The notes below the pieces were generated by a model that worked only from the letters and a program-made list of their open reading frames with translations, was not told the DNA's origin and searched no databases. The position numbers were made by a program, and so were the translations under genes. Positions 3,318 through 46,719 of a stretch of 47,255 nt of DNA are shown in pieces. This stretch comes from Prevotella sp. GTDB taxonomy: Bacteria > Bacteroidota > Bacteroidia > Bacteroidales > Bacteroidaceae. The stretch is from assembly GCA_017619275.1 (NCBI GenBank), contig JAFZSR010000064.1, positions 1 to 47,255 on the forward strand, written 5' to 3'. Numbering within the stretch: the stretch's first letter is position 1; each line of letters begins with the position of its first letter.

Positions 3318-3346
3318 AGGGAAAAATTAGTATTGAAAAATTGTGC

Positions 3347-3449
3347 GTTGACTTTCGAAAAATTCTCGTACGAGATTTTTTCAAAAGTCAACGACTTTTT
3401 TTAAAAAATCGTTACCAAAATTTTGGAGGTCGCCACTGGGTTTTCAGGC
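3347..3449 (-). repeat. Dispersed palindromic repeat, copy A (TCGTACGA family)
   Basis: Read on the minus strand, the order is GTGGCG, CAAAATTTTGGTAACGA, a short T/A-rich stretch, then a palindrome centred on CTCGTACGAG. The two 23-nt halves at 3347-3369 and 3370-3392 are reverse complements with two mismatches. The same order of blocks recurs at 27361-27432 and 46871-46965. It lies between the acyl-CoA synthetase stop and the GIN lipoprotein. No protein function is evident. Confidence 0.8.
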
Positions 3450-4446: not shown

Positions 4447-4572
4447 TTGCGCAGCCCTTCCCCTCCCTTCAAGGGGAGGGGCGGGGGTGGGGTCTCTAAA
4501 AACCTGCCAATGAGGGATATACAGACCCCACCCCAAACCCCTCCCCTTAAGGGGAGGGGAGGGGCTGCGCAA
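4447..4572. repeat. Long inverted repeat (about 48-bp arms, GC-rich)
   Basis: The left arm starts TTGCGCAGCCC and ends GGGGTCT (4447-4496). The right arm runs AGACCCC to GGGCTGCGCAA (4522-4572). Each arm holds an internal CTCCCCTT/AAGGGGAG palindrome. The 126-base element fills most of the gap between the GIN lipoprotein and the sigma factor and could fold into one long hairpin or cruciform. Confidence 0.85.
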
Positions 4573-13763: not shown

Positions 13764-14732
13764 TTATTTGGTGGGTGTCACGGGCAGTATGCGCCCGTCT
13801 TTGCTGAATTGCATGGGGTCGATGCACACCTCGCGGTGGAAGCCGGGACCATCCTTGCGGTCCATGTAGGCAGCGTTGATGCGGTGGTAGACGATGTACC
13901 AGCGGTCCTTGCCGGGAATCTTCAACACGCTGTTGTGGGCGGGGCCGAAGATTTTATCTTCCGGGCGCTGCTGCAGGATGATGGGGTCGTCGGCCACCTT
14001 GATGGGGCCAAGAGGCGAGGTGGCGGTGCCGTAGGCCACATGGTAGTTGGGCGAGCCGGTGTCGTCGACGCTCCAAAGGAAATAGTAGATGCCGTTGCGC
14101 TTGATGACGTAGGTGCCCTCGCGGTAGGCATAGTCCTGCAGGGTGCCGCCGCGCGGGGTGAGCACGGTGACGGTGGTGGTGTCGATAGAGGTCATGTCGG
14201 CGTTCAGCTTCGCCCCGGCCATGTAGCCATTGCCCCAATAGAGGTAGCTCTGCCCGTCGTCGTCGGTGAAGACATCGACGTCAATCTGCTGGCCTCCTCT
14301 CACACCGTGGGGGCGGCTGTCGATGATGGGACGGCCGAAGTCGACGAAAGGCCCGGTGGGCGAGTCGCTGATGGCGACGCCGATGGCTTTGCGCTCGCCC
14401 TGGTCGCCGCTGTAGTAGAAATAGTACTTGCCGTTTTTGTATTCAATGGCGGGTGCCCAGGCGTTTCCGCGAGCCCAGCGGGTATCCTTCTTCAGGTCGA
14501 GGATGATGCCCTCGTAGCGCCACTGCTTGAGGTCCTTCGACGAGTAGCAAGTGAAGTAGTAGCCTCCCCAGCCGGGTGCGCCGTCGGTGGTGGAGTAGAT
14601 GTAATAACGTCCGTCGGGAGCCGCCAGCACCTCGGGGTCGGCGTGCATCTCGGGCAGGATGGGGTTTTGCGCCCTTACGGGGCTAAACGCGAACTGACAG
14701 ATGAGAAATGACAGAATGAGTAAACGCTTCAT
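13764..14732 (-). CDS. Secreted glycoside hydrolase family 43 protein
   Basis: 322 residues with a signal peptide ending SPVRAQ, so it is periplasmic or surface-exposed. It has the five-bladed propeller pattern of GH43: EMHADPEVLAAPDGRYYIYST (Asp32 as likely catalytic base), NAWAPAIEYKNGKYYFYYSG, IDVDVFTDDDGQSYLYWGNG (second acidic residue), AYREGTYVIKRNGIYYFLWS (Glu likely general acid), FGPAHNSVLKI and WYIVYHRI. The family includes arabinofuranosidases, xylosidases and galactosidases; the subfamily cannot be fixed here. It sits between an M16 peptidase and sufC in a closely spaced run with no polysaccharide-utilisation partner, which is an unusual place for it. Confidence 0.9.
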   Translation of the reverse strand: MKRLLILSFLICQFAFSPVRAQNPILPEMHADPEVLAAPDGRYYIYSTTDGAPGWGGYYFTCYSSKDLKQWRYEGIILDLKKDTRWARGNAWAPAIEYKNGKYYFYYSGDQGERKAIGVAISDSPTGPFVDFGRPIIDSRPHGVRGGQQIDVDVFTDDDGQSYLYWGNGYMAGAKLNADMTSIDTTTVTVLTPRGGTLQDYAYREGTYVIKRNGIYYFLWSVDDTGSPNYHVAYGTATSPLGPIKVADDPIILQQRPEDKIFGPAHNSVLKIPGKDRWYIVYHRINAAYMDRKDGPGFHREVCIDPMQFSKDGRILPVTPTK

Positions 14733-14752: not shown

Positions 14753-16093
14753 TTAATGGTAGATGAGTGTGGTAATGCGTTCTGGAGTGAAGAGTAGCTG
14801 GGCTACGTTGAGCAGGTCGTCGGGCGTAAGGCGGTCGATGTGGGCCATGATGTCGTTCAGACTGCGCCCTTTGCCTGTATGCAGGAACGTGCGGGCAGAA
14901 TCGATGGTGAACTGCTCGCGGTTCTCGCAAGCAATGGCCAGCTGACCCTGCAGCTGACGTTTGGCTTGGCGCAGAACGGTGGGTGAGAGCAGCTGCTGCG
15001 TGAAACGGTCGAGCTCGCGGCGCACCAATCGGCAGCAGCGGTCAACATCGTGTGGGTCACAACCGAAGTAGACGGCCCATAGCCCCGTATCACTATAGCA
15101 AGTCATCGAGCTGTCGACGGTGTACACTAGCCCGTGGCGCTCGCGCAGCGTCAGGTTGAGGCGTGAGTTCATGCTGGGGCCACCCAGGATGTTGTTCAGC
15201 AGGTAGAGCGCCCAGCGGCGGTCGTCGTTGGCAGCAAAGGCGCGGGTACCCAGCATGACATGAGCCTGATGAGTGCCGCGCTCGCGGATGGTAATCGGGG
15301 GGAGGGATGTATTTAAGGGGAGTGAAAGGGGAGTGAAGGAGGAGTGAAGGGGGAGTGAAGGAGGAGTGAAGGGGGAGTGAAGGGGGAGTGAAGGGGACAA
15401 TACTTCCCTCTGCTGGTCTATCGTCCCTTTCACTTCCCATTCACTCCCTTTCACTCCCTTTTCACTCCCTTTCACTCCCTTTTCACTCCCTTTCACTCCC
15501 CCTTCACTCCTTTTCACTCCCCTTTCACTCCCCGAAACAAACAGCACACAGTTTTCGGGCCTGTACCATTGCTGGGTGAAACGACGGGCGTCGTCGCTGG
15601 TGTAGGAGCGCACCTGCTGGCTGTTGCCCAGGATGTTATGACCCAACGGATGGTTGGGGAACAGCAAATTCTCGAACTCGTCGTAGATGAGTTCAGAAGG
15701 GGAGTCTTCGTAGCTCTCAATCTCATCGCACACCACCTCGCGTTCTTTCTCCACCTCATGCTGCGGGTATTGGCTGTTGAAGACAATGTCGCAGAGCACG
15801 TCGATGGCACGCTGCAGGTATTGGTGCTGCACCACGCAGTAGTAGACGGTGTCTTCCTTGTTGGTGAAGGCGTTGAGTTCACCTCCCACACCCTCGATGT
15901 CGTTGATGATTTTCCTGGCCGAGCGCCGACTGGTGCCCTTGAAGGCCAGGTGCTCGCAGAAATGAGCCAGTCCGTGTTCTCCAGGAGCTTCATTGCGGGT
16001 GCCGGCATGAACGGCAATGCCGCAATAGGCCACTTGTGAGGTGGATGGCAGTTGCAGTAGGCGCAAACCTGGAGGGAGGAGAGGGAGCTTCAT
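14753..16093 (-). CDS. M16-family zinc peptidase with a repeat-encoded linker
   Basis: 446 residues from ATG 16093, whose ATGA overlaps the stop of the helicase gene (an earlier in-frame ATG at 16126 would overlap it more). The inverted zincin motif is HFCEH (His44, Glu47, His48) within GEHGLAHFCEHLAFKG; the third ligand lies in EREVVCDEIESYEDSP. NAFTNKEDTVYYC and FPNHPLGHNILG are typical. The second half has HQAHVMLGTRAF, GGPSMNSRLNLTLRERHGLVY and YFGCDP. Between halves, residues about 186-258 consist of repeats (GVKGSEKGVKGSE, then SLPLHSPFTPPSLPLHS), encoded by the inverted repeat at 15319-15533. No signal peptide, so probably cytosolic processing peptidase. Confidence 0.92.
   Translation of the reverse strand: MKLPLLPPGLRLLQLPSTSQVAYCGIAVHAGTRNEAPGEHGLAHFCEHLAFKGTSRRSARKIINDIEGVGGELNAFTNKEDTVYYCVVQHQYLQRAIDVLCDIVFNSQYPQHEVEKEREVVCDEIESYEDSPSELIYDEFENLLFPNHPLGHNILGNSQQVRSYTSDDARRFTQQWYRPENCVLFVSGSERGVKRSEGGVKGSEKGVKGSEKGVKGSEWEVKGTIDQQREVLSPSLPLHSPFTPPSLPLHSSFTPLSLPLNTSLPPITIRERGTHQAHVMLGTRAFAANDDRRWALYLLNNILGGPSMNSRLNLTLRERHGLVYTVDSSMTCYSDTGLWAVYFGCDPHDVDRCCRLVRRELDRFTQQLLSPTVLRQAKRQLQGQLAIACENREQFTIDSARTFLHTGKGRSLNDIMAHIDRLTPDDLLNVAQLLFTPERITTLIYH
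15319..15533. repeat. Inverted arrays of an 11-nt unit inside the M16 peptidase gene
   Basis: From 15319 to about 15394 a unit like GGAGTGAAGGG repeats about seven times. From about 15437 to 15533 the complementary unit (CACTCCCTTTT) repeats about nine times with 10- to 11-nt spacing. The middle 40 bases are unique. The arms are reverse complements, so a hairpin of about 70 bp is possible. The frame is kept through the whole element. Confidence 0.9.
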
Positions 16094-18066
16094 GACGTCT
16101 TTCTTAAAGATTGTATGTATTGCCACAGCTTGCGATAGAAGGGATGGCGGGTGAGGGTGTGGCGGTCGCCAAGGATAATCACCTTCATGCGGGCTCGGGT
16201 GATGGCCACGTTCATGCGACGCAGGTCGCGAAGGAAGCCTATCTGTCCCTCGTCGTTGCTGCGCACGAGCGAGATGACGATGATGTCGCGCTCCTGTCCT
16301 TGGAAGCCATCGACGGTGTTCACCGTGATGAAACGTCGGAAGGGCTTGAAGAAATCGTTCTTGCGCAGCAGTTGGCGAAGGAGCTGCACCTGTGCACGAT
16401 AGGGCGAGATGATGCCCACGTCGAGCCGTTCCTCCATGATGCGCTCGCGGCCTATCAGTTCGAAGTAGGCCTGCAGGGAGAGAAGGGTGAGTTGGGCTTC
16501 GGTCTTGTTCAAAAGGGATGTGCCAGCGCCCCCCGAGGGGGCTTCATTGCCGTTTGTGTCACCCTCGGAGGGCGAAACGGGGGCTTCTATCCACGTCATG
16601 GGCAAATCCAAGTCGAGGATGCTGCGGTTTCTTACTTGCGGCGCGGCAATCATTTGGTTATGGTAGAACCAATCGCTACTGAAGCGCATAATGTCTTCGT
16701 GCATGCGGTATTGCATGCGGAGCAGCGTCACCACTTCGGGCTTCTCGTTGGCGATGCGCTCCATGAGTGTGCGTCCCAGCCCGCCCTTCAGGGCTTCGTA
16801 GCATTTCACCGTGGGCGGCAATTGGCAGTGGTCGCCGGCGAAGACGACACGTCCGGCGCGACGGATGGCAATCCAGCAGGCAGCCTCCAAGGCTTGTGCC
16901 GCCTCGTCGATGAACAGCGTGCCAAACTTCTGCCCGTCGAGCAGACGGTTGGCAGAACCGACGAGGGTGCTGGCGATGACGTGCGCCTGACTGAAGAGTT
17001 CCTGGTTGATGCGTATCTCCAACTCGGTGGCGCGGCTCTTCAGGCGGTCCATCTTCTGATGCCACTGTTCGCCGTGCTTCTTCTGGCTGCGCAAATCGCG
17101 GATGGCCTTGCGGATGGCCCACAGTTGCGGGTAGTCGGGATGAGCCTCGAAACGGCGCTCGTAGGTGAAGGAGAGCATCTTGTCGTTCACACGCGAGGGA
17201 TTGCCGATGCGCAGCACGTTCAGGCCACGGTCGACAAGCTTTTCACTAATCCAGTCAACGGCCATGTTGCTTTGGGCGCAGACGAGCACCTGTGGCTCGC
17301 GGCGCAGCGTTTCATAGATGGCCTCGACGAGTGTGGTGGTCTTGCCCGTGCCGGGAGGACCGTGGACGATGGACACGTCCTTGGCTCGCAGCACCTCGTT
17401 CACGGCATGTGCTTGCGTGGGGTTGAGGTAGTCGAAGCCCATGTCGGGGAAGGAGAAGGTCTCGGCCTTCTGTCGCGAATAAAACAAGTCGCGAAGGTAT
17501 CCCAGGCGGCCTTTGGCACGCATGGTGCGCTCCAGCGCCTCGAACATCAGGCGGTAGCTGGTTTCGTCGAAGAAGAGCTGCACGCCCAGCTGGGCGTCGT
17601 CGGTGAGCAAGAGGTCGCTGACGGGGAAACCATCGGGCACGGACACCACCATACGGTCGCCATCAACGTAGGAAACGGTGCCTGTGGAAGAGAAGATATG
17701 GGGCGATTGGGGTTGATGGGTTTGATGGGGTGACTGGGCTTGATGGGATTGCCCATTAGCCCCATTAGTCCCATTACTCCCATCAATCTTAAAGAACTGC
17801 ACAGGCCGCCCGAACTCAAAGTTATGCTCGGCAGGCTCCTCTTCCTCGGCAGACTGCCGGAACACCTCTACGCAGAATTGATTGAGCGAGTTATAGTAGC
17901 TTCGACCCACACGCACGGGCAGCCAGGCATCGCCACGAGCCACGAGGCGCTCAACGCCACGGGCCTGCTGAGCCTGCTGGAACTCCTCTTTCTCGGCTTC
18001 ATACTCCATTTGCAGCAACATGCGTTGTTGCTGAAGCTCCAGTATGGGTGATGTTACTTCGCTCAA
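16090..18066 (-). CDS. Superfamily 1 DNA/RNA helicase (Upf1/IGHMBP2-like)
   Basis: 658 residues. Motifs in order: NPTQAHAVNEVL (Q motif), VHGPPGTGKTTTLVEAIYE (motif I), VLVCAQSNMAVDWISEKL (Ia), TLFIDEAAQALEAACWIA (II, DEAA), VVFAGDHCQLPPTV (III), LLRMQYRMHEDIMRFSS (IV region), VNTVDGFQGQERDIIVISLVRS (V) and RRMNVAITRARMKVIILGD (VI). The N-terminus has a coiled-coil-like start and a beta-barrel. Two low-complexity segments look like repeat insertions: residues about 93-122 (DGSNGTNGANGQSHQAQ and following) and about 497-514. It acts on nucleic acid with 5'-3' polarity in studied relatives; the cellular role is unknown. It overlaps the M16 gene by four bases and follows the DUF3108 gene after 8 bases. 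Confidence 0.93.
   Translation of the reverse strand: MSEVTSPILELQQQRMLLQMEYEAEKEEFQQAQQARGVERLVARGDAWLPVRVGRSYYNSLNQFCVEVFRQSAEEEEPAEHNFEFGRPVQFFKIDGSNGTNGANGQSHQAQSPHQTHQPQSPHIFSSTGTVSYVDGDRMVVSVPDGFPVSDLLLTDDAQLGVQLFFDETSYRLMFEALERTMRAKGRLGYLRDLFYSRQKAETFSFPDMGFDYLNPTQAHAVNEVLRAKDVSIVHGPPGTGKTTTLVEAIYETLRREPQVLVCAQSNMAVDWISEKLVDRGLNVLRIGNPSRVNDKMLSFTYERRFEAHPDYPQLWAIRKAIRDLRSQKKHGEQWHQKMDRLKSRATELEIRINQELFSQAHVIASTLVGSANRLLDGQKFGTLFIDEAAQALEAACWIAIRRAGRVVFAGDHCQLPPTVKCYEALKGGLGRTLMERIANEKPEVVTLLRMQYRMHEDIMRFSSDWFYHNQMIAAPQVRNRSILDLDLPMTWIEAPVSPSEGDTNGNEAPSGGAGTSLLNKTEAQLTLLSLQAYFELIGRERIMEERLDVGIISPYRAQVQLLRQLLRKNDFFKPFRRFITVNTVDGFQGQERDIIVISLVRSNDEGQIGFLRDLRRMNVAITRARMKVIILGDRHTLTRHPFYRKLWQYIQSLRKTS
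17701..17788. repeat. 9-nt-unit inverted repeat inside the helicase gene
   Basis: On the plus strand TTGATGGG-like units run from 17701 to about 17753; the complement (CCCATTA/CCCATCAA, 9-nt period) runs from 17754 to 17788. It encodes a Gly/Asn/Gln/His/Pro-rich stretch before the helicase core. Confidence 0.75.
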
Positions 18067-18924: not shown

Positions 18925-20943
18925 TTACATTTTCATTCCAGTTTTGTCCTGGATATATTCTTTACCCAGCTGTTTGGCTCGATCCAGATTGCGGTTCTTC
19001 AGTTTCTTGGCCTGGTCGGGCTTCTGCTTGATAATCTTTCCTGGTTTCTGTCGGTAGCGGGGCAGAGCCGTGAGGTTCCATCGTCGGCTCACATCCCACT
19101 TGGCCTTGCACTCCACCTCCTCGTTGAAATAGAAAACGGGTTCGGGCTGCAAGTCTTCGTCGTATTTGCCTGTATCCCATTGGCCATTGCCGTTCATGTC
19201 GCAATAGGCGCTGAGATAGTAGGTGCCTGGCTTCACATAGAGGAATTTTACTTTCCCGCTGGCATCGGCCACTTTTTGGTTCGTCATCTTTCCTGAACCG
19301 TCGAGCAGCTGCACGATGACGGTGGCTAGCGTGTCGGCAACGCTGATGGGCGCGCCGCTGACCGTCACCTCGAGCGTGCTGAAATCATCAGGGTTGCTCA
19401 CCTTTACGCCCATCTTAGTGGGTTTGCAGACGCGACCATAGATATTGACGAAGGCAGCCGAGTCGATTTCGAGACTATAATCGGTGCTGTCACGCCATTG
19501 GGCCGTGATTTCGTAGCTCCGCACCGACAGCTGGCGTATTTCGTGTGGCGCGTTAAACCAAAGCGTGTCCACTTTAAAGTAGAGGTGCACCATCGACGTG
19601 TCGCAGCTGAGCAGTGGCTCTTGCGATTCTATGTGTATCTTTTGCAGCGGGGTGATTTTCGAGCCTGGCGAAATCTTCAGATCGAGCATCTTGGGCGGCC
19701 TGACGCTGTCGTAGGGCAGTCCCCGCTTTTTCCTCTTCTCCTGTTCCTTTTGCCACTTCTCCAACTCCCTTTCAAGTTCTTTCTGGCGTTTTGCAAAGAG
19801 CACCTTGGGAACGTATGCCGTAGTGTCGGTCTGTTCCACCAGCATTCCCAGCGTGTCGGTCATCATGTAGCGAACCTCTAATGTGAGCGTGTCACGATTT
19901 ACCAGTGCGGTGTCGCGCAGCCAATAGTGCACGGTGTCGTTCTTCAGCGAGTGTTCCACCACGAAGGCGCTGTCGGCATTGAAGTCGATGCCCCTGATTT
20001 TTGGCAGCGAGTCATGGCCGTAGGTGAAGTAGAGGCTGATTTTCTCTGGCTCGGCCCGCTCGCTTTTCAGCAGGAATCGATCGGTTTGCGGTTCCTGGAA
20101 GCTGAGCAGGGTGATGTCGTCGGGCAGGAAATGGGTGTAGGGCGTTGGCACGATGTTGGCGATGTGGAGCGAGTCGCGCCAGATGGTGTCGTGGCGGGTG
20201 TCGGGTTTCCACGAGGGCATGATGCTGTCGCGCGAGTAGGCAATATGTTCGCTCTTCTGCCCGAAGATGTAGTCGCCATCGGCATCGTTCAGCGCGAAGG
20301 TGCGGTAGCTGCCGGGCGCCACGCCCTTGATGGTGAAGCGGCCGCTGCCATTGGTGCGCGAGACGCGCATCATGGGTTGGGTGTGGAAGACACTGTCGTG
20401 TGAGTTAAAGGGATAGAGTCCCACGAGCATGCCTTTCACGGGCTCTAGGTCTTCGGCGTTGAGCACATAGCCCGACACCTCCAGCGTGTCGATGTGGTCG
20501 CCAGTGCTGAAGCTGTAGGTATAGTTGCCCATGGGGTTACCCTCATTATTGTCGGTGATGGCGTCGCTGAAGTCGATGGTGTAGGTTGTATGCTCCTTTA
20601 GCGTGTCTTTCAGCTCGATGATGATGCGCTTGCCGGCAGCCTTGATGTCGGCTTGCTCTATCTGTGGCGGCGAGATGATGACTTTCTCGTTGGCGTTCTC
20701 CAGCTTGATGTATTCGTTGAAGTCGATGACCACCTTCTTTGCCTTCACTGCAGTGCCTCCGTCGGCGGGCGATGACCCCACCACACGGGGCGGTGTGTCG
20801 TCGTACCATCCACCGTCGGGGCTACCCATGCGGGCGCAAGCGCTAAACGACAAATGATAGATGATAAATGATAATGCCACCACCACCCAGCAAAGTCGAT
20901 GGCGGATACCATTCACCTTATTATCCTTTTGCGTCTTTATCAT
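18925..20943 (-). CDS. SbsA Ig-like domain lipoprotein
   Basis: 672 residues. The N-terminus has a hydrophobic stretch (VVVALSFIIYHLSFSAC) ending in a probable lipobox Cys36, so it is likely membrane-anchored. Residues about 50-145 form a bacterial Ig-like domain of the SbsA type (TPPRVVGSSPADGGTAVKAK; IDFNEYIKLEN; TYTIDFSDAITDNNEGN; YSFSTGD). A carboxypeptidase-regulatory-like repeat follows (VLNAEDLEPVKGMLVGLYP; GRFTIKGVAPGSYRTFALND), then long beta-rich and charged regions (LERELEKWQKEQEKRKKRG) and a second such repeat near the C-terminus (KVKFLYVKPGTYYLSAYCDMN). It probably has a structural or envelope role. A heptanucleotide repeat supplies part of the signal-peptide codons. Confidence 0.83.
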   Translation of the reverse strand: MIKTQKDNKVNGIRHRLCWVVVALSFIIYHLSFSACARMGSPDGGWYDDTPPRVVGSSPADGGTAVKAKKVVIDFNEYIKLENANEKVIISPPQIEQADIKAAGKRIIIELKDTLKEHTTYTIDFSDAITDNNEGNPMGNYTYSFSTGDHIDTLEVSGYVLNAEDLEPVKGMLVGLYPFNSHDSVFHTQPMMRVSRTNGSGRFTIKGVAPGSYRTFALNDADGDYIFGQKSEHIAYSRDSIMPSWKPDTRHDTIWRDSLHIANIVPTPYTHFLPDDITLLSFQEPQTDRFLLKSERAEPEKISLYFTYGHDSLPKIRGIDFNADSAFVVEHSLKNDTVHYWLRDTALVNRDTLTLEVRYMMTDTLGMLVEQTDTTAYVPKVLFAKRQKELERELEKWQKEQEKRKKRGLPYDSVRPPKMLDLKISPGSKITPLQKIHIESQEPLLSCDTSMVHLYFKVDTLWFNAPHEIRQLSVRSYEITAQWRDSTDYSLEIDSAAFVNIYGRVCKPTKMGVKVSNPDDFSTLEVTVSGAPISVADTLATVIVQLLDGSGKMTNQKVADASGKVKFLYVKPGTYYLSAYCDMNGNGQWDTGKYDEDLQPEPVFYFNEEVECKAKWDVSRRWNLTALPRYRQKPGKIIKQKPDQAKKLKNRNLDRAKQLGKEYIQDKTGMKM
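20852..20875. repeat. Heptad repeat AAATGAT in a signal-peptide region
   Basis: AAATGAT, AGATGAT, AAATGAT run in tandem on the plus strand. On the minus strand they encode the LSFIIYHLSF core of the lipoprotein signal peptide. Confidence 0.7.
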
Positions 20944-23225: not shown

Positions 23226-23386
23226 AATTTAGAATTTAGAGTTTAGAATTAAGAGTTATTCTCGCTTCGCTGCGATTAAGATTTTTTGAATTAAGAATTG
23301 GTGCTCGATATAATTCTTAACTTATAATTCTTACTCGCCATAGGCGATAACTCTAAATTCTTAATTCTAAACTCTAAATTCTTAAT
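23226..23386. repeat. AT-rich heptad inverted repeat between the hemolysin-III and WG-repeat genes
   Basis: The left arm (23226-23265) and right arm (23344-23386) both consist of TTTAGAAT/TTAGAGT-type heptads in opposite orientation. The right arm overlaps and supplies the TAA stop of the WG-repeat gene (23384-23382). The 160-base gap contains nothing else I recognise. Confidence 0.8.
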
Positions 23387-24611: not shown

Positions 24612-24647
24612 TTTGTTCTGTTATAAGTGAATATCATTATTGTTTAT

Positions 24648-24722
24648 CAATGTTCAACGTTCATCGTTCAACGTTCAACGTTCAACGTTCATCGTTCAAT
24701 GTTCAACGTTCAACGTTCAACG
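24648..24722. repeat. Tandem CAACGTT heptad array
   Basis: About ten head-to-tail copies of CAACGTT (some CATCGTT or CAATGTT), starting 5 bases after the RNase R stop codon (24729-24727). Related arrays occur inside the RNase R gene (26056-26135) and the surface-protein gene (46556-46589). Confidence 0.9.
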
Positions 24723-24726
24723 TGTC

Positions 24727-26985
24727 TCAGTCTGCCAGTACGAAGTCCAGCTGACGGCGCTCGATGTTGGCGCGAGCCACCTTGATGCGAATGGCGTCGC
24801 CCAACTGGTATTTGCGATGGTGGCGTCGGCCCACCAGCTGGTAGTTGCGCTCGTCGAACTCGTAGTAGTCGCCGTCGAGGTCGTGCATGCCCACGAGTCC
24901 CTCGCAGTGGTTCTCGTCAATCTCGCAATAGAGGCCGTAGCTCTGCACGCCACTGATGTGTGCGTCGAACTCTTGTCCCACCTTGTCGGCCATGAACTCC
25001 ACCATCTTGTACTTGATGCTGTCGCGTTCGGCGTTGGCAGCCGTCTGCTCCATATTGCTGGAGTGCTCGCACAGCTCTTCGTAGTGTTCTTGGTTGGCAC
25101 TGCGGCCGCCCTCCTGATAGCGGGTAAGCAGGCGGTGCACCATGGTGTCGGGATAACGGCGTATGGGCGAGGTGAAGTGGGTGTAGAAGTCGAAGGCCAG
25201 TCCGTAGTGCCCAATGTTGTGGGTGGAGTATTTGGCCTTCATCATGGCCTTGAGGGTCAGTGCCTCCACCAACTTCTGCTCGCGGCGTCCCTGTGCTTCC
25301 TCCATCATTTTGTTCAGTCCGCGCGAGATGGCTCCGCGTGTGCCGCTGGTCTTCACCTTGTAGCCCAGTGGTGCCAACGCCACGCGCAGGTTTTCCAGTT
25401 TCTGGGGGTCGGGCTGGTCGTGGATGCGGTAGGGCAGGGTCTTTGCCTTTGTCCCTTTGGGTACGCGCCCTATCGATTCGGCCACAGTGCGATTGGCCAG
25501 TAGCATGAACTCCTCGATGAGCTGGGTGGCCAGCGTGGATTTCTTGAAAATACAGCGTGTGGGGTGCCCCTTCTCGTCGACTTCGAAATGCAGCTCCTCA
25601 CGGTCGAACTTCACGGCGCCGCCTTGGAAGCGCCGCTCGCGCAGCTTCTGCGCCATTTGGCTCAGCAGGCACAGCTCCTGGGCGTAGGGGTCGTTATTGT
25701 TGGCAGGGCTAGCTTTTCTAGATGAACTAGATTGGCTAGAAGAACTAGTTTTTCTAGAATCCAAGATGGCTTGCACCTCCTCGTAGGCATAGCGGCGGTT
25801 GCTCTTGATGACAGTATGTGCCAGGTGCCAGCGCTTGATATTGGCCTCCTCGTCGAGCTCGAAGATGACGCTGTAGCACAGCTTCTCTTCGTCGGGGCGC
25901 AGCGAGCAGATGAAATTACACAGCCGCTCGGGCAGCATGGGGATGGTACGGTCGACCAGGTAGACGCTGGTGGCACGTTGCTGGGCCTCCTTGTCGATGA
26001 TGCTGCCCTCGGTGACATAGTGCGACACGTCGGCAATGTGAACGCCAACCTCGTACAACGTTGAACGTTGAACGTTGGAAGTTGAACGTTTATTTTCACT
26101 ATCGTCGTTCAACGTTGAATGTTCAACGTTCAACGGACGTATGCTCAGTGCATCGTCGAAGTCCTTGGCATCGGCGGGGTCGATGGTGAAGGTGAGCACG
26201 TCGCGGAAGTCCTCGCGGCGGGCAATCTCCTCGGGAGTGATGCCCGGTTCAATCTTGTTGGCGGCATCCTCTACGCGCTTGGGATACTTATAGGGCAGGT
26301 CGTACTGTGCCAGGATGGCGTGCATCTCCGTGTCGTTATCGCCCTGCTGACCCAGCACGTCAATTACTTCGCCCACCAGGTTCTTCGACTCCTCGCTAGG
26401 CCACTGGGTGATGCGCACCACTGCCTTCTCGCCCGTCTTGCCACCCTTCAGCTTCTTCTTGGGTATCAGGATGTCGTGCACGAAGATGTTGCCCTCGGTC
26501 ACCAGGAAGGCGTAGTCTTTCTCCACTTGCAGGATGCCCACGGCCTGGTTGTGCTTGCGCTCCAGAATCTCAATGACCATGGCCTCCTTGATGTGGTTCT
26601 GCCTACGGGCCATCATGGCCACGCGCACGCGGTCGCCGCCCATGGCGCTCATGGAGTTGCGCTCGCTCACGAAGATGGGCTTGCCGCCATCGTCGGGCAA
26701 GAACGAGTTCTTGCCGTTGGTCTTGCGGATGAAAGTGCCCTCCTGCACCTGTGTCTTCAAGTTCAGTCGGAAGGTGGAATTGTCGACACGGCTCAGGACG
26801 TCGTCCCACGCCATCTCCTCCATCGCATCCACGGCCAACATCTTGGCTGGATGGGTGTTAAGGTGCAGTGCCTTGAATATCTGCTTGTAGCTCAGTGCCT
26901 CGTTGGGATGAGCTTGGAACAAGCTCTGCACGGCTTCGGCCACCATGCGCTTGTTCAGTCGTTTTCCTCCATTTCTTTGTCCCAT
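24727..26985 (-). CDS. rnr: Ribonuclease R, with two repeat-encoded insertions
   Basis: 752 residues from ATG 26985; the longer frame from 27087 starts upstream of the promoter. It degrades structured RNA 3'-5'. Order: N-terminal winged helix (MVAEAVQSLFQAHPNEALSY), cold-shock domains (VRVAMMARRQNHIKEAMVIE; YAFLVTEGNIFVHDILI), RNB domain with the metal-binding DPADAKDFDDALS, YEVGVHIADVSHYV, VDRTIPMLPERL, EEFMLLANRTVAE, HFTSPIRRYPD.MVHRLL, and C-terminal S1 (GVQSYGLYCEID). Two segments are foreign: residues about 282-310 (NVEHSTLNDDSENKRSTSN), directly after the catalytic aspartate cluster, and about 408-427 (SRKTSSSSQSSSSRKASPAN). Each maps to a short-period DNA repeat. Whether the enzyme stays fully active is open. 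Confidence 0.95.
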   Translation of the reverse strand: MGQRNGGKRLNKRMVAEAVQSLFQAHPNEALSYKQIFKALHLNTHPAKMLAVDAMEEMAWDDVLSRVDNSTFRLNLKTQVQEGTFIRKTNGKNSFLPDDGGKPIFVSERNSMSAMGGDRVRVAMMARRQNHIKEAMVIEILERKHNQAVGILQVEKDYAFLVTEGNIFVHDILIPKKKLKGGKTGEKAVVRITQWPSEESKNLVGEVIDVLGQQGDNDTEMHAILAQYDLPYKYPKRVEDAANKIEPGITPEEIARREDFRDVLTFTIDPADAKDFDDALSIRPLNVEHSTLNDDSENKRSTSNVQRSTLYEVGVHIADVSHYVTEGSIIDKEAQQRATSVYLVDRTIPMLPERLCNFICSLRPDEEKLCYSVIFELDEEANIKRWHLAHTVIKSNRRYAYEEVQAILDSRKTSSSSQSSSSRKASPANNNDPYAQELCLLSQMAQKLRERRFQGGAVKFDREELHFEVDEKGHPTRCIFKKSTLATQLIEEFMLLANRTVAESIGRVPKGTKAKTLPYRIHDQPDPQKLENLRVALAPLGYKVKTSGTRGAISRGLNKMMEEAQGRREQKLVEALTLKAMMKAKYSTHNIGHYGLAFDFYTHFTSPIRRYPDTMVHRLLTRYQEGGRSANQEHYEELCEHSSNMEQTAANAERDSIKYKMVEFMADKVGQEFDAHISGVQSYGLYCEIDENHCEGLVGMHDLDGDYYEFDERNYQLVGRRHHRKYQLGDAIRIKVARANIERRQLDFVLAD
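25709..25759. repeat. CTAG-rich repeat inside the RNase R gene
   Basis: Three imperfect 18-nt units built on TCTAGAAAAACTAG-like half-palindromes. On the coding strand they specify a Ser-rich stretch within the RNB domain. Confidence 0.7.
26056..26135. repeat. Inverted heptad repeat (CAACGTT) inside the RNase R gene
   Basis: CAACGTTGAACGTTGAACG at 26056-26074 and more units to about 26090, then a 20-base spacer, then CAACGTTGAATGTTCAACG at 26110-26128. The arms are in opposite orientation and the frame is preserved. Confidence 0.82.
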
Positions 26986-27020
26986 AATTAATAAAATAAT
27001 GTATGAATGACTATTAGGCG

Positions 27021-27051
27021 CAAAGTTACGAAATCTTTCTTTACCATGCAA
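27021..27051 (-). promoter_or_regulatory. RNase R promoter
   Basis: TTG (27051-27049), 20 nt, TAACTTTG (27028-27021) on the minus strand; the leader to ATG 26985 is about 30 nt. This settles the start choice. Confidence 0.75.
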
Positions 27052-27067
27052 GATTTTTGGCGAAAAG

Positions 27068-27099
27068 TTTGGAGGCTTCGGAAACATTTCCTATCTTTG
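27068..27099 (+). promoter_or_regulatory. Strong plus-strand promoter upstream of the AAA ATPase region
   Basis: TTTG (27068-27071), 20 nt, TATCTTTG (27092-27099). It is divergent from the RNase R promoter. The predicted start near 27106 is about 410 nt before the next plus-strand gene. Confidence 0.75.
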
Positions 27100-27360: not shown

Positions 27361-27432
27361 TTCAAAATTTTGGTAACGACTTTTTGAAATTTGGTAACGC
27401 TTTTTTGAAAAATCTCATACGGTTTTTTTTTA
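27361..27432 (+). repeat. Dispersed palindromic repeat, copy B
   Basis: TTCAAAATTTTGGTAACG, then GAAATTTGGTAACG, then AAAAATCTCATACGG: the same block order as copies A and C, but the central palindrome has decayed (CTCATACGG for CTCGTACGAG). Confidence 0.8.
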
Positions 27433-27481: not shown

Positions 27482-27518
27482 GCGTTGTATTGGAATTCTA
27501 TGATTAAACTTGTATCGC

Positions 27519-29754: not shown

Positions 29755-31881
29755 ATGAAAAAAACATTGTTGAGCCTCGTGGCTGCCTTGCCCTTCTGCG
29801 GAGCAATGGCCGACGAGGGCATGTGGACACTCTACGACCTGCCGCAGGCCGTCTACGAAAAAATGCAGCTGGAGGGCTACCAGCTGCCCTACGACAAACT
29901 CTACAAGGCCGACGACGCCATTATGAAGAGCGTGGTGAATTTCTCGGGCTATTGCTCGGGCGTCGTCGTCAGCCCCGACGGGCTTGTCTTCACCAATCAC
30001 CACTGCGGCTTCGAGGCCATCCGCAGCCACAGCACCGTGGAGCACGACTACATGCTCAACGGATTCATAGCCAAGAGCTACGAGGAGGAGCTGCCCAACG
30101 AGAATATGTTCGTGAGTTTCATGGTGGAGCAGAAGGACATCACCGATCAGGTGATTACGCCGCGATTCCAAGAGATGAGCATGATGGAACAGTCCATGTT
30201 CCTCGACAGCTTGGAGAACGCTCTCTCCAAGGAGGTCAAAGCCAAGGACAAAACCTTGCGCCTGGAGCTGAAACCCTTCTACGAGGGCAACCGCTACTAC
30301 GTCACCACCTATCGCGACTTCACCGACCTGCGCCTCGTCTTCGCCATCCCCAAGTCGATGGGAAAGTTTGGCGGCGAGACCGACAACTGGATGTGGCCGC
30401 GCCAGACGTGCGACTTCAGCGTGTTCCGCATCTATGCCGACCCGGAGACCAACGGTCCGGCAGCCTATAGCGAGAAGAACGTGCCCTATCACCCCCAGCA
30501 CTGGGCCAAGGTGAGCACCGAGGGCTACCGCGAAGGCGACTTCTCGATGACCATGGGCTATCCCGGCAGTACCAGCCGCTATCTGAGCAGCTACGGCATT
30601 GGCGAGCGCTATGCGCAAAACGCCACCAGGGCACAGGTGCGCGGCGTGAAGCAGGAGGTGATGAAGCGCCACATGGACAAGGCCGAGGGCGTGCGCATCA
30701 AGTACGACTCGAAATATGCCCAGTCGTCGAACTACTGGAAGAACTCCATCGGCATGAACAAGTGCATCGACAGCATTGGCCTCATCCAGCAGAAGGAGCA
30801 GTTCGAACAGCAGTTGCAGCGCTGGCAGGACAGCACGGGCTACCTGAAGGGTAAGCTCGACCTGCAGCGCATGCGGCAGCTCTACGAGCAGCGCATCGCC
30901 ATCAGCGAGGAACTCATGCTCTGGGGCGAGAGCTTCTCGCGCAACGAGGAACTCACGCAACGTGCTATGCGCGCCAACACCCCGAACACTCGCAGAGAGG
31001 GCAGCGGCAAACGTGCGCACATCAACTTCAAGGACAACAGCGACACTTGGGACTACGACACCGACCGCGAGATACTGGGCGCCATGCTGCAGAACTATCG
31101 CGAGCAGGTAAAGGACCAGAAATGGCTCCCTGAATTTTATACAAAGGTCATCGACCGCAAGTTCCATGGCGACTGCCAGGCATACGCCAACCACCTCTAC
31201 AAGAAGTCGGCACTCATCAAGAAGGGACGCGTGTATCCCAACAAAGGCTCGTTCATGAAAGACCTGGGCGTGAGCTACGGCTACGAGCTTACCCAGCTGC
31301 GCGATGCCTTGCGCAACCAGCTCGTGGGCGTATCGGCCGAGATTGAGAAGCAGGAGCAGTACCTCTGCGATGCCAAGCTGCGCATGGAACAGGACATGCC
31401 CCACTACAGCGACGCCAACTTCACCATGCGCATGAGCTACGGACAGGTAAAGGAATACAAGCTGGGCGGACGTCCGTCGGGCTACTACACCGATGCCGTC
31501 AGTCTGTTACGCAAGATGCAGGTGGCCGACCAGCAGGAAGACTACCGCGTGGAGCCTGAAATGATGGCTCTGATGAACGTGGCCAGCACACCAGCCCCCG
31601 GGACCGTGCCTCGCTACTTCGACAAACATACGAAGAAGTTGCAGCTTTGCTTCCTCACCACCAACGACATCACCGGCGGCAACAGCGGTTCGCCCATGTT
31701 CGACGGACAGAACCGCCTCATCGGACTGGCTTTCGACGGCAACTGGGACTCGCTGTCGAGCGACATCTTCTTCGACTCGCAGTTGGCACGCTGCATCGGC
31801 GTCGACATCCGCTTTGTGCTCTACATGATGGACTACTGGGGGAATGCCGACCGACTGCTGAAGGAAATCACAGGAAAATGA
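29755..31881 (+). CDS. S46-family dipeptidyl-peptidase (DPP7-like)
   Basis: 708 residues with a signal peptide (LLSLVAALPFCGAMA). It is a periplasmic serine exopeptidase removing N-terminal dipeptides, important in protein fermentation by Bacteroidota. The triad is visible: VFTNHHCGFEAI (His83), WMWPRQTCDFSVFRIY (Asp220) and TGGNSGSPMFDG (Ser644). The S1 specificity position, 18 residues after the serine, is Gly662 (AFDGNWDS) rather than Arg, which in characterised enzymes separates DPP7 (hydrophobic P1) from DPP11 (Asp/Glu P1); DPP7-type specificity is therefore inferred. It is followed by an aspartyl protease gene 15 bases away, suggesting a proteolytic pair. Confidence 0.95.
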   Translation: MKKTLLSLVAALPFCGAMADEGMWTLYDLPQAVYEKMQLEGYQLPYDKLYKADDAIMKSVVNFSGYCSGVVVSPDGLVFTNHHCGFEAIRSHSTVEHDYMLNGFIAKSYEEELPNENMFVSFMVEQKDITDQVITPRFQEMSMMEQSMFLDSLENALSKEVKAKDKTLRLELKPFYEGNRYYVTTYRDFTDLRLVFAIPKSMGKFGGETDNWMWPRQTCDFSVFRIYADPETNGPAAYSEKNVPYHPQHWAKVSTEGYREGDFSMTMGYPGSTSRYLSSYGIGERYAQNATRAQVRGVKQEVMKRHMDKAEGVRIKYDSKYAQSSNYWKNSIGMNKCIDSIGLIQQKEQFEQQLQRWQDSTGYLKGKLDLQRMRQLYEQRIAISEELMLWGESFSRNEELTQRAMRANTPNTRREGSGKRAHINFKDNSDTWDYDTDREILGAMLQNYREQVKDQKWLPEFYTKVIDRKFHGDCQAYANHLYKKSALIKKGRVYPNKGSFMKDLGVSYGYELTQLRDALRNQLVGVSAEIEKQEQYLCDAKLRMEQDMPHYSDANFTMRMSYGQVKEYKLGGRPSGYYTDAVSLLRKMQVADQQEDYRVEPEMMALMNVASTPAPGTVPRYFDKHTKKLQLCFLTTNDITGGNSGSPMFDGQNRLIGLAFDGNWDSLSSDIFFDSQLARCIGVDIRFVLYMMDYWGNADRLLKEITGK

Positions 31882-32000
31882 AAACGGAAATGAGAAATGA
31901 GAAAGGCTGAGAGGAAATATTGGCTTAACATGCAGACATGCCGCATGGCATTTCTCATCTTTTCTTTGCTCCTTTCTCCTTTCTCATTCCTCGTTTCTCA
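31882..32000. repeat. TTTCTCA heptad inverted repeat at the S46/aspartyl-protease junction
   Basis: The left arm (31882-31905, GGAAATGAGAAATGAG) starts immediately after the S46 stop. The right arm (31949-32000) has CCTTTCTCATT-type heptads in the opposite orientation and encodes the hydrophobic core of the next protein's signal peptide. Confidence 0.75.
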
Positions 32001-44400: not shown

Positions 44401-46693
44401 GATTAGCAGGAGCGCCAGCGGTGAGCCAAAAAGCATCGGCTCGGTTTTGACTACTGGCACCCAGATGCTCATTCGCTTCAATTCTACTGCCGACTATTAC
44501 GCCGGTATTGACCTGACGGCATCGATTTACAATCCTAATACTGAAAATAACATCACGGTGGTAAACCCCGTCACTGGCGGCACCGTTACCTCTTTGGTTG
44601 AAATAGCAAAGTATGGCGACGAGGTGGCGCTGAACATCACGCTTGATACTGGCTATGTGCTTGAAAGCATCGAGGTGAAGGATGCCGACAACAACATCAT
44701 CAGCACCGGCGACTGGACGTGGTACGACGTCGGCTCGACAGTCAAATTCACCATGCCTTCAAGCGATGTCACCGTCACACCCACGTTCACCGACTGCCCC
44801 AGCATCAATATTAAGAATACTGGATCCAATTTGAGCAATGCCATGGTTATGGACATCCCAGCCGGGCTGATGAGCTTCAAAGTGTATGACGACGGTGGCA
44901 AGGACGGTAACTACAGCCCGGGCACTTTTCATAGCTACACGCTGTTTAACGTTCCCCAAGGCTATTGTATGAAAGTGAAAGGAACAGTGAAAACCTATAA
45001 CTACAATGATGAGCTGAAAATCTATGACGACAATTCCACCAACTCACTGCTTGGCTCTTACGTTGGGACTAAGGATGTAGGCGAACTGTTCACGACCTCC
45101 AACCAGATGCTGCTCTATTTCAACGGTTTTGATAGTAATGTAGCAGAGGGCTTTGAGCTGACTGTGAACGTCTTCAACCCTGCCACGCTGGTCACCCTCA
45201 ATAACAACGCTACGAACAACAGCACAACCATCGCCAACAATGATGGCAATATGACGAGCGTGCAGCTCTCTAACCGCACATTCTATCAAAACGGCGACTG
45301 GAACACCATCTGTCTGCCCTTCGACATGACGCTGTCGGGCACCCCGCTGGCAGGAGCCAACGTCAAGACACTGACCGACGCCAGCTTCGAAGACGGCACG
45401 CTTAATCTGACCTTCGGCGACAACACAACGGAACTCACAGCCGGGACACCTTATATAATTAGGTGGGAGCCTGCCGACCTCGTCATAAATAATAAGACTG
45501 ACTGGGATAACTTCGTAGGAGCAGTGAATGGTCATGGCAACACGTTTGAGAATAAAGTAGTTCGCCTGGCCGCCGACATTGATGGTGTCACTTCAATGGT
45601 GGGCACAAGTTTAAGCTCATATAAGTTCAAGGGCACTTTCGATGGCAACGGCCACACGCTGACGCTCAACCTGCAGGCCAACGGCGATTACTGCGCTCCG
45701 TTCCGATATGTCGATGGTGCCACCATCAAAAACCTGCACACGGCGGGAACCGTTAATGCCGGTACATATAAGTTCGGTTCGGGTCTTGTAGGCGAGAGCA
45801 GAGGAACTGTCACTATCCAGAACTGCAGGAGCAGTGTTACCATCAACAGCAGCGTCGATGGCGATGGCACCCACGGTGGCTTCGTTGGCGTAGAGAATAG
45901 CGGCAGCGTCACCTTGACCAACTGCCTCTTCGATGGCACCATCAGCGGCAGTGCAACCACCAGCTGCGGCGGCTTCATGGGATGGCATGCCACTCAGAAC
46001 AACAACACCTACCCTGTGACCTTCGAAAACTGCTTGATGGCCGGCACATTGGATATCAGCATAGATGAGAATAGTGCCACCTTCACTCGCAATGGCGATG
46101 TTGGTACTACCATCATCAACTGTTATTACACAACGGCTTTGACCAACAACGGCGTCAACCAAGGTGATCCAGTCGTCAATATGAACAACGATGAACTGGC
46201 TAATGCGCTCGGTAGTGGCTGGCAGGTGAGCGCCGGCGGGGTGATGCCAAGAATTATCACCCTCGTCGACCCGACATTCTTAGGTGTGAAAATCAACAAA
46301 ACCGTAAACGACCAGGTCTTCGACCTTGGCAGCGGAAAGTCCATCACCTTCAAGGGCACCTATGACAAGCTGAGCTACGACGAAGACACACCCAGCATTC
46401 TCTTCTTGGGAGCCGCTAACACGCTCTATTATCCGCAGAACGGTGCCTCCATCGGTGCCTGCCGTGCCTACTTCGAGCTTGGCGGCATTACGGCTGGCGA
46501 TGTGTCGGGAGTCCGTATGTTCTTCGGTAACGGTTCCGAGGAGACTGGAATAGTTAACGTTGAACGTTCAACATTCAACGTTCAACGTTTAGCGTCCGAC
46601 GCTTGGTTCGACCTCAACGGTCGCAAGCTCAATGGCGTGCCCACCGCCAAGGGCGTCTACATCCACGGAGGCCACAAGGTGGTGGTGAAGTGA
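41489..46693 (+). CDS. Large modular surface protein (discoidin-like, GLUG-like, CUB-like and B-repeat modules)
   Basis: 1734 residues. A signal peptide (AAMTLLLAALCSTGAWA) is followed by a discoidin-like domain (about 40-215: FDGDKSTKWVY; KWKLYGSNDINGTWTKID; YYRLEITDVNG). Next are an Ig-like segment, a GLUG/beta-helix module (about 300-580: GHFDGDGHTLTLDL; CLFDGTITGSTTTRCGGFVG), another Ig-like segment, then three CUB-like units (FKVYDDGGKNNNY; VKIYDDGGKDHNN; FKVYDDGGKDGNY) separated by two B-repeat-like units (ITVVNLNTERGTVSVNP; ITVVNPVTGGTVTSL). A second GLUG module (about 1330-1588) closely copies the first. The tail WFDLNGRKLNGVPTAKGVYI resembles Prevotella C-terminal surface signals. 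An adhesion or host-glycan role is inferred. Confidence 0.82.
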   Translation: MKKGKVRKNLARAAMTLLLAALCSTGAWAAGDICVAGARYTLFNAGYKYIASSLPNAWYNTPNGENEEVVCKRLFDGDKSTKWVYVPSGTSNSCPTLTIDFQVVASNNFYPVVKGYILVTGDDTETYTNRNPTKWKLYGSNDINGTWTKIDERNTSSNSADKLPLSNLAEKSYMTPNNNTGYTYYRLEITDVNGRLSSDESKYKCQLNELILFGNSEYYNNNTLNNYTIGGLENALTWTGNDLAPDYYVHRNGTHLSPSNYRSGITPSRVRDAGFYTLTIYENSSNYPGEKSVIFRVAKPLEGEGTEESPYLINDYNDWNAFAEKVTYDNANYGDKYYKLTSDITVTTMVGSSGSPFKGHFDGDGHTLTLDLSAADFLNSHNLSADGTCRAPFRYVSGTSSSPISIRRLHTTGTVTAGSAVLDDVNMHRSGLIGQCNGYVNIDNCWSSVNITSSLAREGGHSGFIGKSYSNSVVKINNCLFDGTITGSTTTRCGGFVGGGASNVTIKNCLMAGTLDISIDPNDTKNSATFSRITLSSDSKKNYYVNSYGTVQGTDVGEMTNDELLAALGNQWEILGGKVVPIIDTKNLKLGTVECSTNWPWTGEEISVVPTIKDVDGNLVDAANYTVSFSPSPVQAAGDYTMTVTGSANGYRGTLTHLFTVSTIPKGMYQDGETLAINMPKSDITTLDLSQFSVNSFKVYDDGGKNNNYTTYCTGSLKIIAPEGRLIRISGNVKCASSGYLKIYDGGTRVDNIIIGKSRFGSTEGENIGTLTSTGQEMLLYFYTSSPRYEGLDLTVTLIDASTEYDITVVNLNTERGTVSVNPALAAANTDITVSVAPASGYRLCDLQAADAFGNRIDLSHLLWYNNTSTGTFKMASSDVTITPTFTNVWTAEGGLYVNMPKSGETLTVNLDTETPSVKIYDDGGKDHNNSYNCDGYLLLTAPQGYSVKLTGTMDTGALKAYDGSTAVTQLISRSASGEPKSIGSVLTTGTQMLIRFNSTADYYAGIDLTASIYNPNTENNITVVNPVTGGTVTSLVEIAKYGDEVALNITLDTGYVLESIEVKDADNNIISTGDWTWYDVGSTVKFTMPSSDVTVTPTFTDCPSINIKNTGSNLSNAMVMDIPAGLMSFKVYDDGGKDGNYSPGTFHSYTLFNVPQGYCMKVKGTVKTYNYNDELKIYDDNSTNSLLGSYVGTKDVGELFTTSNQMLLYFNGFDSNVAEGFELTVNVFNPATLVTLNNNATNNSTTIANNDGNMTSVQLSNRTFYQNGDWNTICLPFDMTLSGTPLAGANVKTLTDASFEDGTLNLTFGDNTTELTAGTPYIIRWEPADLVINNKTDWDNFVGAVNGHGNTFENKVVRLAADIDGVTSMVGTSLSSYKFKGTFDGNGHTLTLNLQANGDYCAPFRYVDGATIKNLHTAGTVNAGTYKFGSGLVGESRGTVTIQNCRSSVTINSSVDGDGTHGGFVGVENSGSVTLTNCLFDGTISGSATTSCGGFMGWHATQNNNTYPVTFENCLMAGTLDISIDENSATFTRNGDVGTTIINCYYTTALTNNGVNQGDPVVNMNNDELANALGSGWQVSAGGVMPRIITLVDPTFLGVKINKTVNDQVFDLGSGKSITFKGTYDKLSYDEDTPSILFLGAANTLYYPQNGASIGACRAYFELGGITAGDVSGVRMFFGNGSEETGIVNVERSTFNVQRLASDAWFDLNGRKLNGVPTAKGVYIHGGHKVVVK
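46556..46589. repeat. Heptad repeat within the surface-protein gene
   Basis: AACGTTGAACGTTCAACATTC and further CAACGTT units in frame, encoding VNVERSTFNVQR. It lies exactly between the body of the protein and the C-terminal tail, as a linker. Confidence 0.8.
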
Positions 46694-46719
46694 TGTAGTT
46701 TACTACGCCAGCGGCGCTA

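Follow-up and report, generated by a model that had tools for sequence, protein, structure and literature searches.

Opposing tandem arrays in Prevotella protein genes as the probable ends of a small mobile element encoding a 23S rRNA intervening-sequence protein

The stretch of DNA analysed here (the window) is a 47,255-nt contig of Prevotella sp. (JAFZSR010000064.1) from a 127-contig draft genome that is 85% complete. Its gene for an M16 peptidase contains two opposing arrays of a short tandem unit. Our subject is the relation of these and similar arrays to the genes of the 23S rRNA intervening-sequence proteins (IVPs), which in this genome lie outside the window. The coordinates of the features are collected in Table 1.

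The initial annotation described opposing 11-nt arrays inserted into the M16 gene with the reading frame kept. This was confirmed by Tandem Repeats Finder (TRF), by the open frame and by Pfam, which found M16 domains on either side of the insert. Over both arms, the right one being reverse-complemented, the count of C was 0 of 190. In the right arm, TRF scored 176 for a 21-nt period and 122 for an 11-nt one. As single-stranded DNA, positions 15311–15540 fold with −78.7 kcal/mol (z = −11.7), and none of 200 shuffles was as good. An M16 gene next to the helicase gene was not found in relatives, and the M16 orthologs in relatives were therefore searched separately from the helicase neighbourhood. 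The alignment to relatives proposed in the same annotation bore out the variation of these places: the M16 loop is variable in 29 same-genus orthologs and holds other repeat peptides in about four of them (L172, L181, L170 and L192), and the helicase loop does so in 4–5 of 27 congeners (both by eye).

With the M16 insert as the query against the genome, like sequence was found on contigs C68, C28, C55, C77, C22 and C123. On C28, a 127-aa open reading frame (ORF) lies between two opposing 11-nt arrays and belongs to PF05635, 23S_rRNA_IVP (E 6e-36; TIGR02436, E 9e-34; structure 2gsc, E 3e-19). The inner ends agree by eye between C28 (GGGACGATAG...CTATTGTCCC), C68 (GGGACGATAG...CTATTGTC) and the M16 insert (GGGACAATA...TATCGTCCC). 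The genome has 9 matches to PF05635, 5 of them over the cut-off, and all 5 of these genes stand tightly between opposing arrays, the units being GGGGAGTGAAA, AACGTTC, GGAGTTA, AAATGAT and GAATTAA. The four weak matches (L096–L099, ORFs of 224–257 aa) have no flanking pair within 200 nt on both sides. A parent with matching ends, as known for miniature inverted-repeat transposable elements (MITEs), is thus present in the genome for two inserts of the window, namely C28 for M16 and C82 for the one at 26057–26135 in the RNase R gene. These two inserts appear to be IVP-less (MITE-like) kin of the C28 and C82 elements, tolerated in loops.

The sense reading of GGGGAGTGAAA gives TGA once per 11 codons, and the antisense reading gives none. 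The M16 right arm, which is read in the stop-prone sense, has the 21-nt (10+11) period, by which the reading frame is locked, while its C28 counterpart stays at 11 nt. Selection for the reading frame would be the simplest reason for the 21-nt period.

The flanks of IVP genes were then compared across bacteria. In this test, each side of the match had to carry an array no more than 200 nt away, and the sequences of the two arrays had to match inverted; scores of at least 20 were taken as weak and of at least 30 as strong. One set comprised 74 loci of 40 genomes, 39 of them relatives of this one: the 5 own loci, one locus (the best) for 29 of the relatives, and a further 40 picked by hand among the matches listed. 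One run of the test covered 38 loci, of which four, the weak own hits L096–L099, are not in the count of 74. The other set comprised 80 named loci, the best 80 of at least 578 confirmed relatives, with a span from 25 nt before to 60 nt after the tblastn match. The weak threshold was reached by 65 of the 74 loci and by 47 of the 80, and the strong one by 39 of the 80. For the pooled loci, 112 of 154 reached at least 20, compared with 171 of 3059 permuted left/right pairings, and 94 of 154 reached at least 30, compared with 38 of 3059. Random stretches gave 0 of 600 and 1 of 600, together 1 of 1200 at the strong threshold, and gene-like ORFs gave 2 of 308 at the weak and 1 of 308 at the strong threshold.

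Judging by the titles of their records, the 39 strongly passing loci among these best 80 of at least 578 represent ten or more bacterial phyla. The titles include Xanthomonas, Flavobacterium, Clostridiaceae, Treponema and Planctomycetaceae, as well as Acidobacteria, Nitrospirae, Thermomicrobiales and Verrucomicrobiia. One of three records of the candidate phyla radiation (L253, L254, L278) and one of two Methanophagales archaeal records (L300) passed the weaker test only. The arms were described on the 94 loci scoring at least 30. The period is 7 nt in 59 of them and 8 nt in 22, the median arms are 34 and 33 nt long, and the 5' arm is poor in C (7.5%, against 25.7% in the flanks), with G exceeding C in 89 of 94. 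A universal inner motif was rejected as a candidate: GACRAT occurs at 13 of 188 inner and 3 of 188 outer ends. Rfam, which includes rRNA families, gave no match in 9 sources (the window and 8 IVP loci, the five own among them), and the plasmid copies described below sit between annotated protein genes.

Two further observations concern these loci. The IVP gene of L296 (Planctomycetota) has unusually long arms of ~240 nt each, built of a CGGTGGA heptamer. Array-flanked IVP genes were also seen inside plasmid CRISPR operons (L206 and L208, with cas10/cmr3 and cas6/cas4 as neighbours). Passages of PMC3936711 report 18 IVP genes in cas loci, which such array-flanked IVPs may explain.

Occupied and empty sites were found on cyanobacterial plasmids, for which 10 of 30 hits were fetched; L200 does not differ from L199 in the 1701 bases compared and was left out of the flank test. 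Eight of the nine tested loci score at least 20, one of them (L207) being doubtful. Heptamer arms of the TCAGGAG/TCAGAAT type occur in five of the nine and visibly in L203, and the others have different units. At the first site, L199 carries a 428-nt insert, which is 14 nt shorter in L203, and the site is empty in L209, L210 and L211 (97–98% identity). The elements of L199 and L203 differ by two units. At the same site, L212 (92%) has a truncated IVP and L218 (81%) an IVP-less hairpin with like arms. Elements occupy the second site in L201, L202 and L205, the IVP of the last being interrupted, whereas the site is empty in L213–L217. In L214, an IVP element of another unit stands between the two genes that follow, and L220 has an unrelated insertion at the second site. 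The plasmid insertions are located at or just past a stop codon, ahead of the next start. Between L201 and L202, the IVP gene (1501–1866) is identical at 365 of 366 nt, compared with 408 of 441 and 374 of 414 in the flanking genes; this would fit a later exchange of the element than of the DNA around it, and gene conversion could account for it as well.

Array families occur together with IVPs that have the same arms. The array pattern AACGTTNAACGTTNAACGTT was found in 3 of 60 genomes, namely 47 times here, 7 times in G033 and once in G019; an IVP with AACGTT arms is present in this genome and in G033, the neighbours differing by eye. The 11-nt unit pattern occurs in 1 of 60 genomes, which is this one, where an IVP with the 11-nt unit was read. 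GGGAATC, which forms the arms of the Xanthomonas IVP, is found as arrays in all five genomes chosen for IVP arms of GGGAATC (four) or GGGATTC (one) and in none of five chosen for other arms. The overlapping hits in the five genomes number 95, 42, 52, 79 and 16, the last (G064) at 3 places. Among the 59 period-7 elements, those with more nearly identical IVPs also have more similar units (Mantel r 0.25; 0 of 1000 permutations).

AACGTT arrays are read in frame in several genes. The first 15 of the 47 AACGTT hits listed represent 11 distinct sites, 10 of which were judged to be inside credible ORFs, and 8 of these 10 ORFs match a Pfam family. According to Pfam, the host ORFs include a UvrA-type protein, a UvrD helicase, Dxs, a DHODB Fe-S (PyrK-type) protein, a LytTR regulator with the array between its two domains, a porin, an M6 peptidase and a lamin-tail protein. 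In Dxs, the N domain is matched in two stretches, the best of which stops where the insert starts.

A census of arrays was made on 390,864 bases, namely the window and 20 contig-start stretches that were not randomly drawn, with one Markov-generated set as the control and a pair threshold of at least 30. It gave 320 arrays and 15 opposing pairs, compared with 51 arrays and 0 pairs in the control; 4 of the 15 pairs fall in the window. The gap within the pair is at most 141 nt in all 15, so none of them has room for an IVP gene.

Table 1. Features of the window discussed in the text (an empty cell means that no strand applies)
Feature	Position	Strand	Description
M16 insert, left arm	15317..15396	+	7.3 copies of GGGGAGTGAAG (11 nt), C residues absent; TRF
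M16 insert, spacer	15397..15423		27 nt; with the arm ends gives the inner ends GGGACAATA...TATCGTCCC
M16 insert, right arm	15424..15533	-	~10 inverted copies, 21-nt (10+11) period; TRF
M16 peptidase gene	14753..16126	-	open reading frame through the insert
Helicase gene (AAA_11/AAA_12)	16090..18066	-	ORF and Pfam
Helicase-loop insert	17698..17783		9-nt G-rich array, then C-rich array
Opposing pair AATTTAG / TCTAAAT	23226..23386		7-nt units; intergenic, 5-nt overlap with the stop end of the gene at 23382
AACGTT array	24647..24723	+	11 units; just past the 3' end of the RNase R gene
RNase R gene (RNB, CSD2)	24727..27087	-	ORF and Pfam
RNase R opposing AACGTT arms	26057..26135		7-nt pair, arms 26057–26090 and 26106–26135; unit that of the C82 IVP element
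Opposing pair AAATGAG / CTTTCTC	31876..31999		7-nt units; covers the start of the gene 31897–33168
AACGTT array, orientation switch	46556..46589	+	no spacer; near the C terminus of the large surface protein gene 41489–46693

The initial annotation had regarded the insert-bearing genes of the window as cases of one kind. This held for M16, for RNase R at 26057–26135 and for the surface protein; AACGTT arrays also stand 32–34 aa from the ends of two further ORFs of the genome (L014 and L023). It did not hold for two others. The insert of hutI (8366–8495) is a 34-nt inverted repeat, 97% complementary, of GC-rich palindromes and not a tandem array, and RNase R at 25709–25759 has a single 9-nt (codon-multiple) array whose inverted partner was not seen, so plain codon repetition suffices there. 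The helicase insert is built alike, from 9-nt units, but its arrays match inverted only partly by eye and were not picked by the opposing-pair test; no IVP bearing its unit was seen in this genome. Two pairs of the window were absent from the list of that annotation. By eye, the unit at 23226–23386 resembles the C40 IVP arms, and that at 31876–31999 is one base off the C77 IVP arms (AAATGAT). In the sampled part of the genome, the proposed search for inverted arrays gave pairs which the control lacked, and most arrays are unpaired. Of the suggested spreading process with in-frame, tolerated survivors, the loop variation of congeners, the in-frame AACGTT arrays and the 21-nt period of M16 speak in favour, with the restriction that not all cases are of one kind.

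The hutI-type palindromes are a second class of in-frame inserts, separate from the IVP-type arrays. They are GC-rich and nested (the CCTCCCCCAACTGGGGGAGG and CCCTCCCC...GGGGAGGG types), are found at 8366–8495 and 4447–4572, and recur elsewhere in the genome on C101, C27, C85, C100, C12 and C84. Peptides resembling this type fill the M16 loop (L170, L192) and the helicase loop (L051) of congeners. Other repeats of the window include near-identical 21-nt double repeats of TTTGGTAACGACTTTTTGAAA at 27369–27410, upstream of the gene at 27510, and at 46901–46941, after the surface protein, as well as inverted repeats at 47014–47090 (28 nt, perfect), 46719–46775 (25 nt) and 3346–3393 (24 nt), some with GCGAATGA units. 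In three genes (20844–20874, 31964–31999 and 14691–14720), the hydrophobic core of the N-terminal signal peptide seems, by eye, to be encoded by sequence derived from arrays, the cores being FIIYHLSF, SPFSFLVS and LSFLICQF.

We propose that the arrays are probably ends of a small mobile element, which would be moved by its IVP together with host enzymes. We are surer of the identity of the arrays, which very probably are ends of IVP elements or of their IVP-less kin, than of the mover, where the IVP is a somewhat better than even candidate. The full form, of ~430 nt, consists of a 5' arm in which a unit of 7 to 12 nt is repeated ~4–5 times in tandem, the IVP gene and an inverted 3' arm of the same unit. 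Its product is a four-helix-bundle protein of ~120 aa (PF05635/TIGR02436, the 23S rRNA intervening-sequence proteins), distantly like Avd of diversity-generating retroelements (DGRs). The arms could pair into one long hairpin; as the 5' arm is poor in C, it would fold poorly on itself. Structures of IVP relatives have been solved (2gsc, 2rld), and a pentameric ring is described in passages of PMC4990558. The IVP, pentameric in one solved relative, may recognise the repeated units, and the hairpin would be copied or moved elsewhere by the IVP and host enzymes. At a guess, 4–5 units of 7–8 nt, that is 28–40 nt, would suit a five-fold ring. Slippage would change the number of units in an arm. Within genes, only stop-free and frame-keeping copies at tolerant places would persist, and single arrays may be remains of opposing pairs.

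Several findings weigh against this proposal. Transposition was not seen, and we know of no catalytic activity of IVPs. The resolved insertions end in the repeats GTAAT and TTCTA at the first two sites and in at most 3 nt at the third (by eye), so 5-nt repeats occur at only two of three; in 92 other elements, flank repeats did not exceed chance, and target-site duplication was rejected as a general rule. Even the weak flank test is failed by 42 of the 154 IVP loci; no pair was found at L103, L112, L145 and L162, and the units of L165 have the same orientation. The order of units is mirrored between the arms only slightly more often than in permuted arms (46 of 83, P = 0.002). On the ORF-sense strand, the arms mismatch more often as A.C (92) than as G.U (56). 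This bias is opposite to the wobble excess by which selection of a sense-RNA stem would have been recognised; it argues against such a stem and leaves DNA or antisense RNA as the nucleic acid that may be involved. Most arrays of the census are single, AACGTT pairs occur at only 2 of the 11 sites (L015 in Dxs and L016 in the PyrK-type gene), the others being single or short orientation switches, and several pairs here (AACGGATTT, CACAGAAAC and the helicase unit) match none of the five IVP units of the genome. In G019, which has one AACGTT array, four of six PF05635 matches were read and all have other arms, one of them (GAATGTT) a base away. In xanthomonads, all five elements (L221–L225; three Xanthomonas, one Luteimonas and one Dokdonella) stand at one conserved place, by eye just before an accC-like start, which fits a vertically kept gene; the IVP would be kept vertically there while the arrays disperse, like REP-associated tyrosine transposases (RAYTs) with REP doublets forming hairpins (REPINs). 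Finally, passages of PMC4692102 mention few inverted pairs in Nostoc, and those of PMC4679880 count 169 direct sets of TAACTGA and one inverted among 170 in the main genome.

The IVP could instead be a host RNA- or DNA-binding regulator with the arrays as its binding sites, their spread being selected for regulation and not selfish. IVP genes are indeed under purifying selection: dN/dS is 0.10–0.15 in eight diverged cyanobacterial pairs and 0.06–0.22 in seven computable xanthomonad pairs, and two near-identical cyanobacterial pairs (0.86 and 0) have too few changes to judge. The conserved place in xanthomonads points the same way, and TAACTGA repeats are proposed as post-transcriptional sites in passages of PMC4679880. 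We still consider this role unlikely, since the arrays lie inside enzyme coding sequences, the units differ per element within one genome, and whole elements have empty sites, a spread that regulation alone does not explain.

A mover acting in trans, either a RAYT/Y1 transposase or a reverse transcriptase (RT), would make the IVP a passenger or helper. REPINs, as doublets of inverted repeats, are presumed to depend on such a trans mover (passages of PMC3116915), and the IVP is similar to Avd (NF033474, E 4e-7, below cut-off), the partner of an RT. The Prevotella genome, an 85%-complete draft, has no match to RVT_1 (PF00078) and one marginal Y1_Tnp (24.4 bits, cut-off 23). G008, a 90%-complete draft with 11 PF05635 matches, has neither, and G028, a draft with 15 matches, has no RVT_1 and one Y1_Tnp. 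In these drafts, RAYT and a PF00078 RT thus found no support as movers, other enzyme families not having been searched, and the reverse-transcription route that the initial annotation had listed as a possible mechanism lost its enzyme, as far as this draft goes. We regard a trans mover as quite improbable; the scarcity of RT and Y1 matches leaves the IVP with host enzymes as the leading candidate.

The same annotation had also considered slippage plus inversion. Each array would then arise by local slippage, and the opposing arm by inversion or snap-back copying, independently at each locus. That units differ among loci, that many arrays are single and that copy number varies within arms (L199 and L203) would fit. 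A local origin is nevertheless very improbable, because the 11-nt unit recurs with like inner ends at C28, C68 and M16, unit families are common to several loci and an IVP element, recur at many sites and track IVPs, and a whole 428-nt insertion stands against empty sites. An assembly artefact at repeats, conceivable in a draft of 127 contigs, is scarcely credible given the kept frame, the like architecture in plasmid records titled complete and the inner ends shared by distinct loci.

If the arrays are ends of an IVP element, a ~430-nt mobile element with no recognised transposase would be added to those known, and the in-frame gain of loops in conserved enzymes would be explained. The dispersed heptanucleotides of cyanobacteria, Xanthomonas and Beggiatoaceae are given no source in passages of PMC4692102 and PMC4679880, and how IVP-bearing rRNA inserts move is a question that goes back to the early 1990s; with arms and IVPs matching, both questions receive one testable answer. 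A wider reading is speculative, and we think it may well be wrong. IVP elements might form a class of mobile DNA that has no transposase and no RT, in which a pentameric ring reads 4–5 units and drives hairpin-templated copying. If so, the 4–5 tandem units of 7–8 nt (~35 nt) would be read one per subunit in a three-letter, C-poor arm. The class would be the source of the short tandemly repeated repetitive sequences (STRRs) of cyanobacteria, the G-quadruplex (G4) heptamers of Xanthomonas and the FNVQRST-type peptides of Bacteroidetes, and rRNA intervening sequences (IVSs) and Avd would have arisen from it by capture.

Known systems share parts of this architecture. Dispersed heptanucleotide repeats were reportedly described in cyanobacteria by Mazel in 1990. 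The STRR heptanucleotides, the TAACTGA repeats and the GGGAATC G4 repeats of Xanthomonas have a period of 7, like the IVP arms; the heptamers appear alone in passages of PMC4692102 and PMC4679880, and here GGGAATC forms the arms of the Xanthomonas IVP. According to passages of PMC4692102, four units of GGGAATC are preferred in Xanthomonas, two genomes have 70 and 75 convergent pairs, and the repeats are generally not found with mobile elements. Passages of PMC4679880 place TAACTGA repeats in Beggiatoaceae, cyanobacteria and Bacteroidetes and suspect horizontal spread, with no mechanism evident. In the open-access literature, as represented by titles, starts of abstracts and passages, we found no link of IVPs to tandem-array ends, and we do not claim its absence anywhere in print.

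Avd, which works with an RT, has a similar four-helix bundle. Its equivalog model matched two IVPs weakly (30.2 and 29.8 bits, cut-off 80) and a third not at all, and no RT is tied to IVP elements. Rickettsia palindromic elements are small and are read in frame inside protein genes; like the inserts here, they are palindromic, and to our knowledge they have neither tandem-array arms nor an IVP parent. The IVSs of 23S rRNA come close in structure, having the same protein family, an ORF within a stem of terminal inverted repeats and a length of ~430 nt. In Coxiella, the IVS has 428 nt and a 28-bp stem, and IVS mobility was hypothesised by Burgin (1990) and by Ralph and McClelland (1993), as cited in passages of PMC4990558. 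The elements described here have the IVP ORF and terminal inverted repeats (strongly in 94 of 154 loci), yet the loci put to Rfam had no rRNA match and the plasmid copies lie between annotated protein genes, not in a 23S rRNA gene; their arms are tandem arrays, and they have IVP-less derivatives and in-frame inserts in protein genes. Excision from the RNA by RNase III is a further feature of the IVSs. REPINs with RAYTs are alike in combining a gene with inverted doublets that have matching ends, and in having unit families specific to the gene copy; whether the doublet is what disperses is less clear here, with 15 pairs among 320 arrays and 2 of 11 AACGTT sites paired. In contrast to REPINs, IVP elements seem not to need a Y1 transposase by the evidence of the genomes (no cognate Y1/RAYT, with one marginal own hit and none in IVP-rich G008, both drafts being incomplete), and each of their ends is a tandem run of 7- to 12-nt units instead of a single palindrome. 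IVP elements are built like rRNA IVSs and behave like REPINs, and they lack a defining feature of each.

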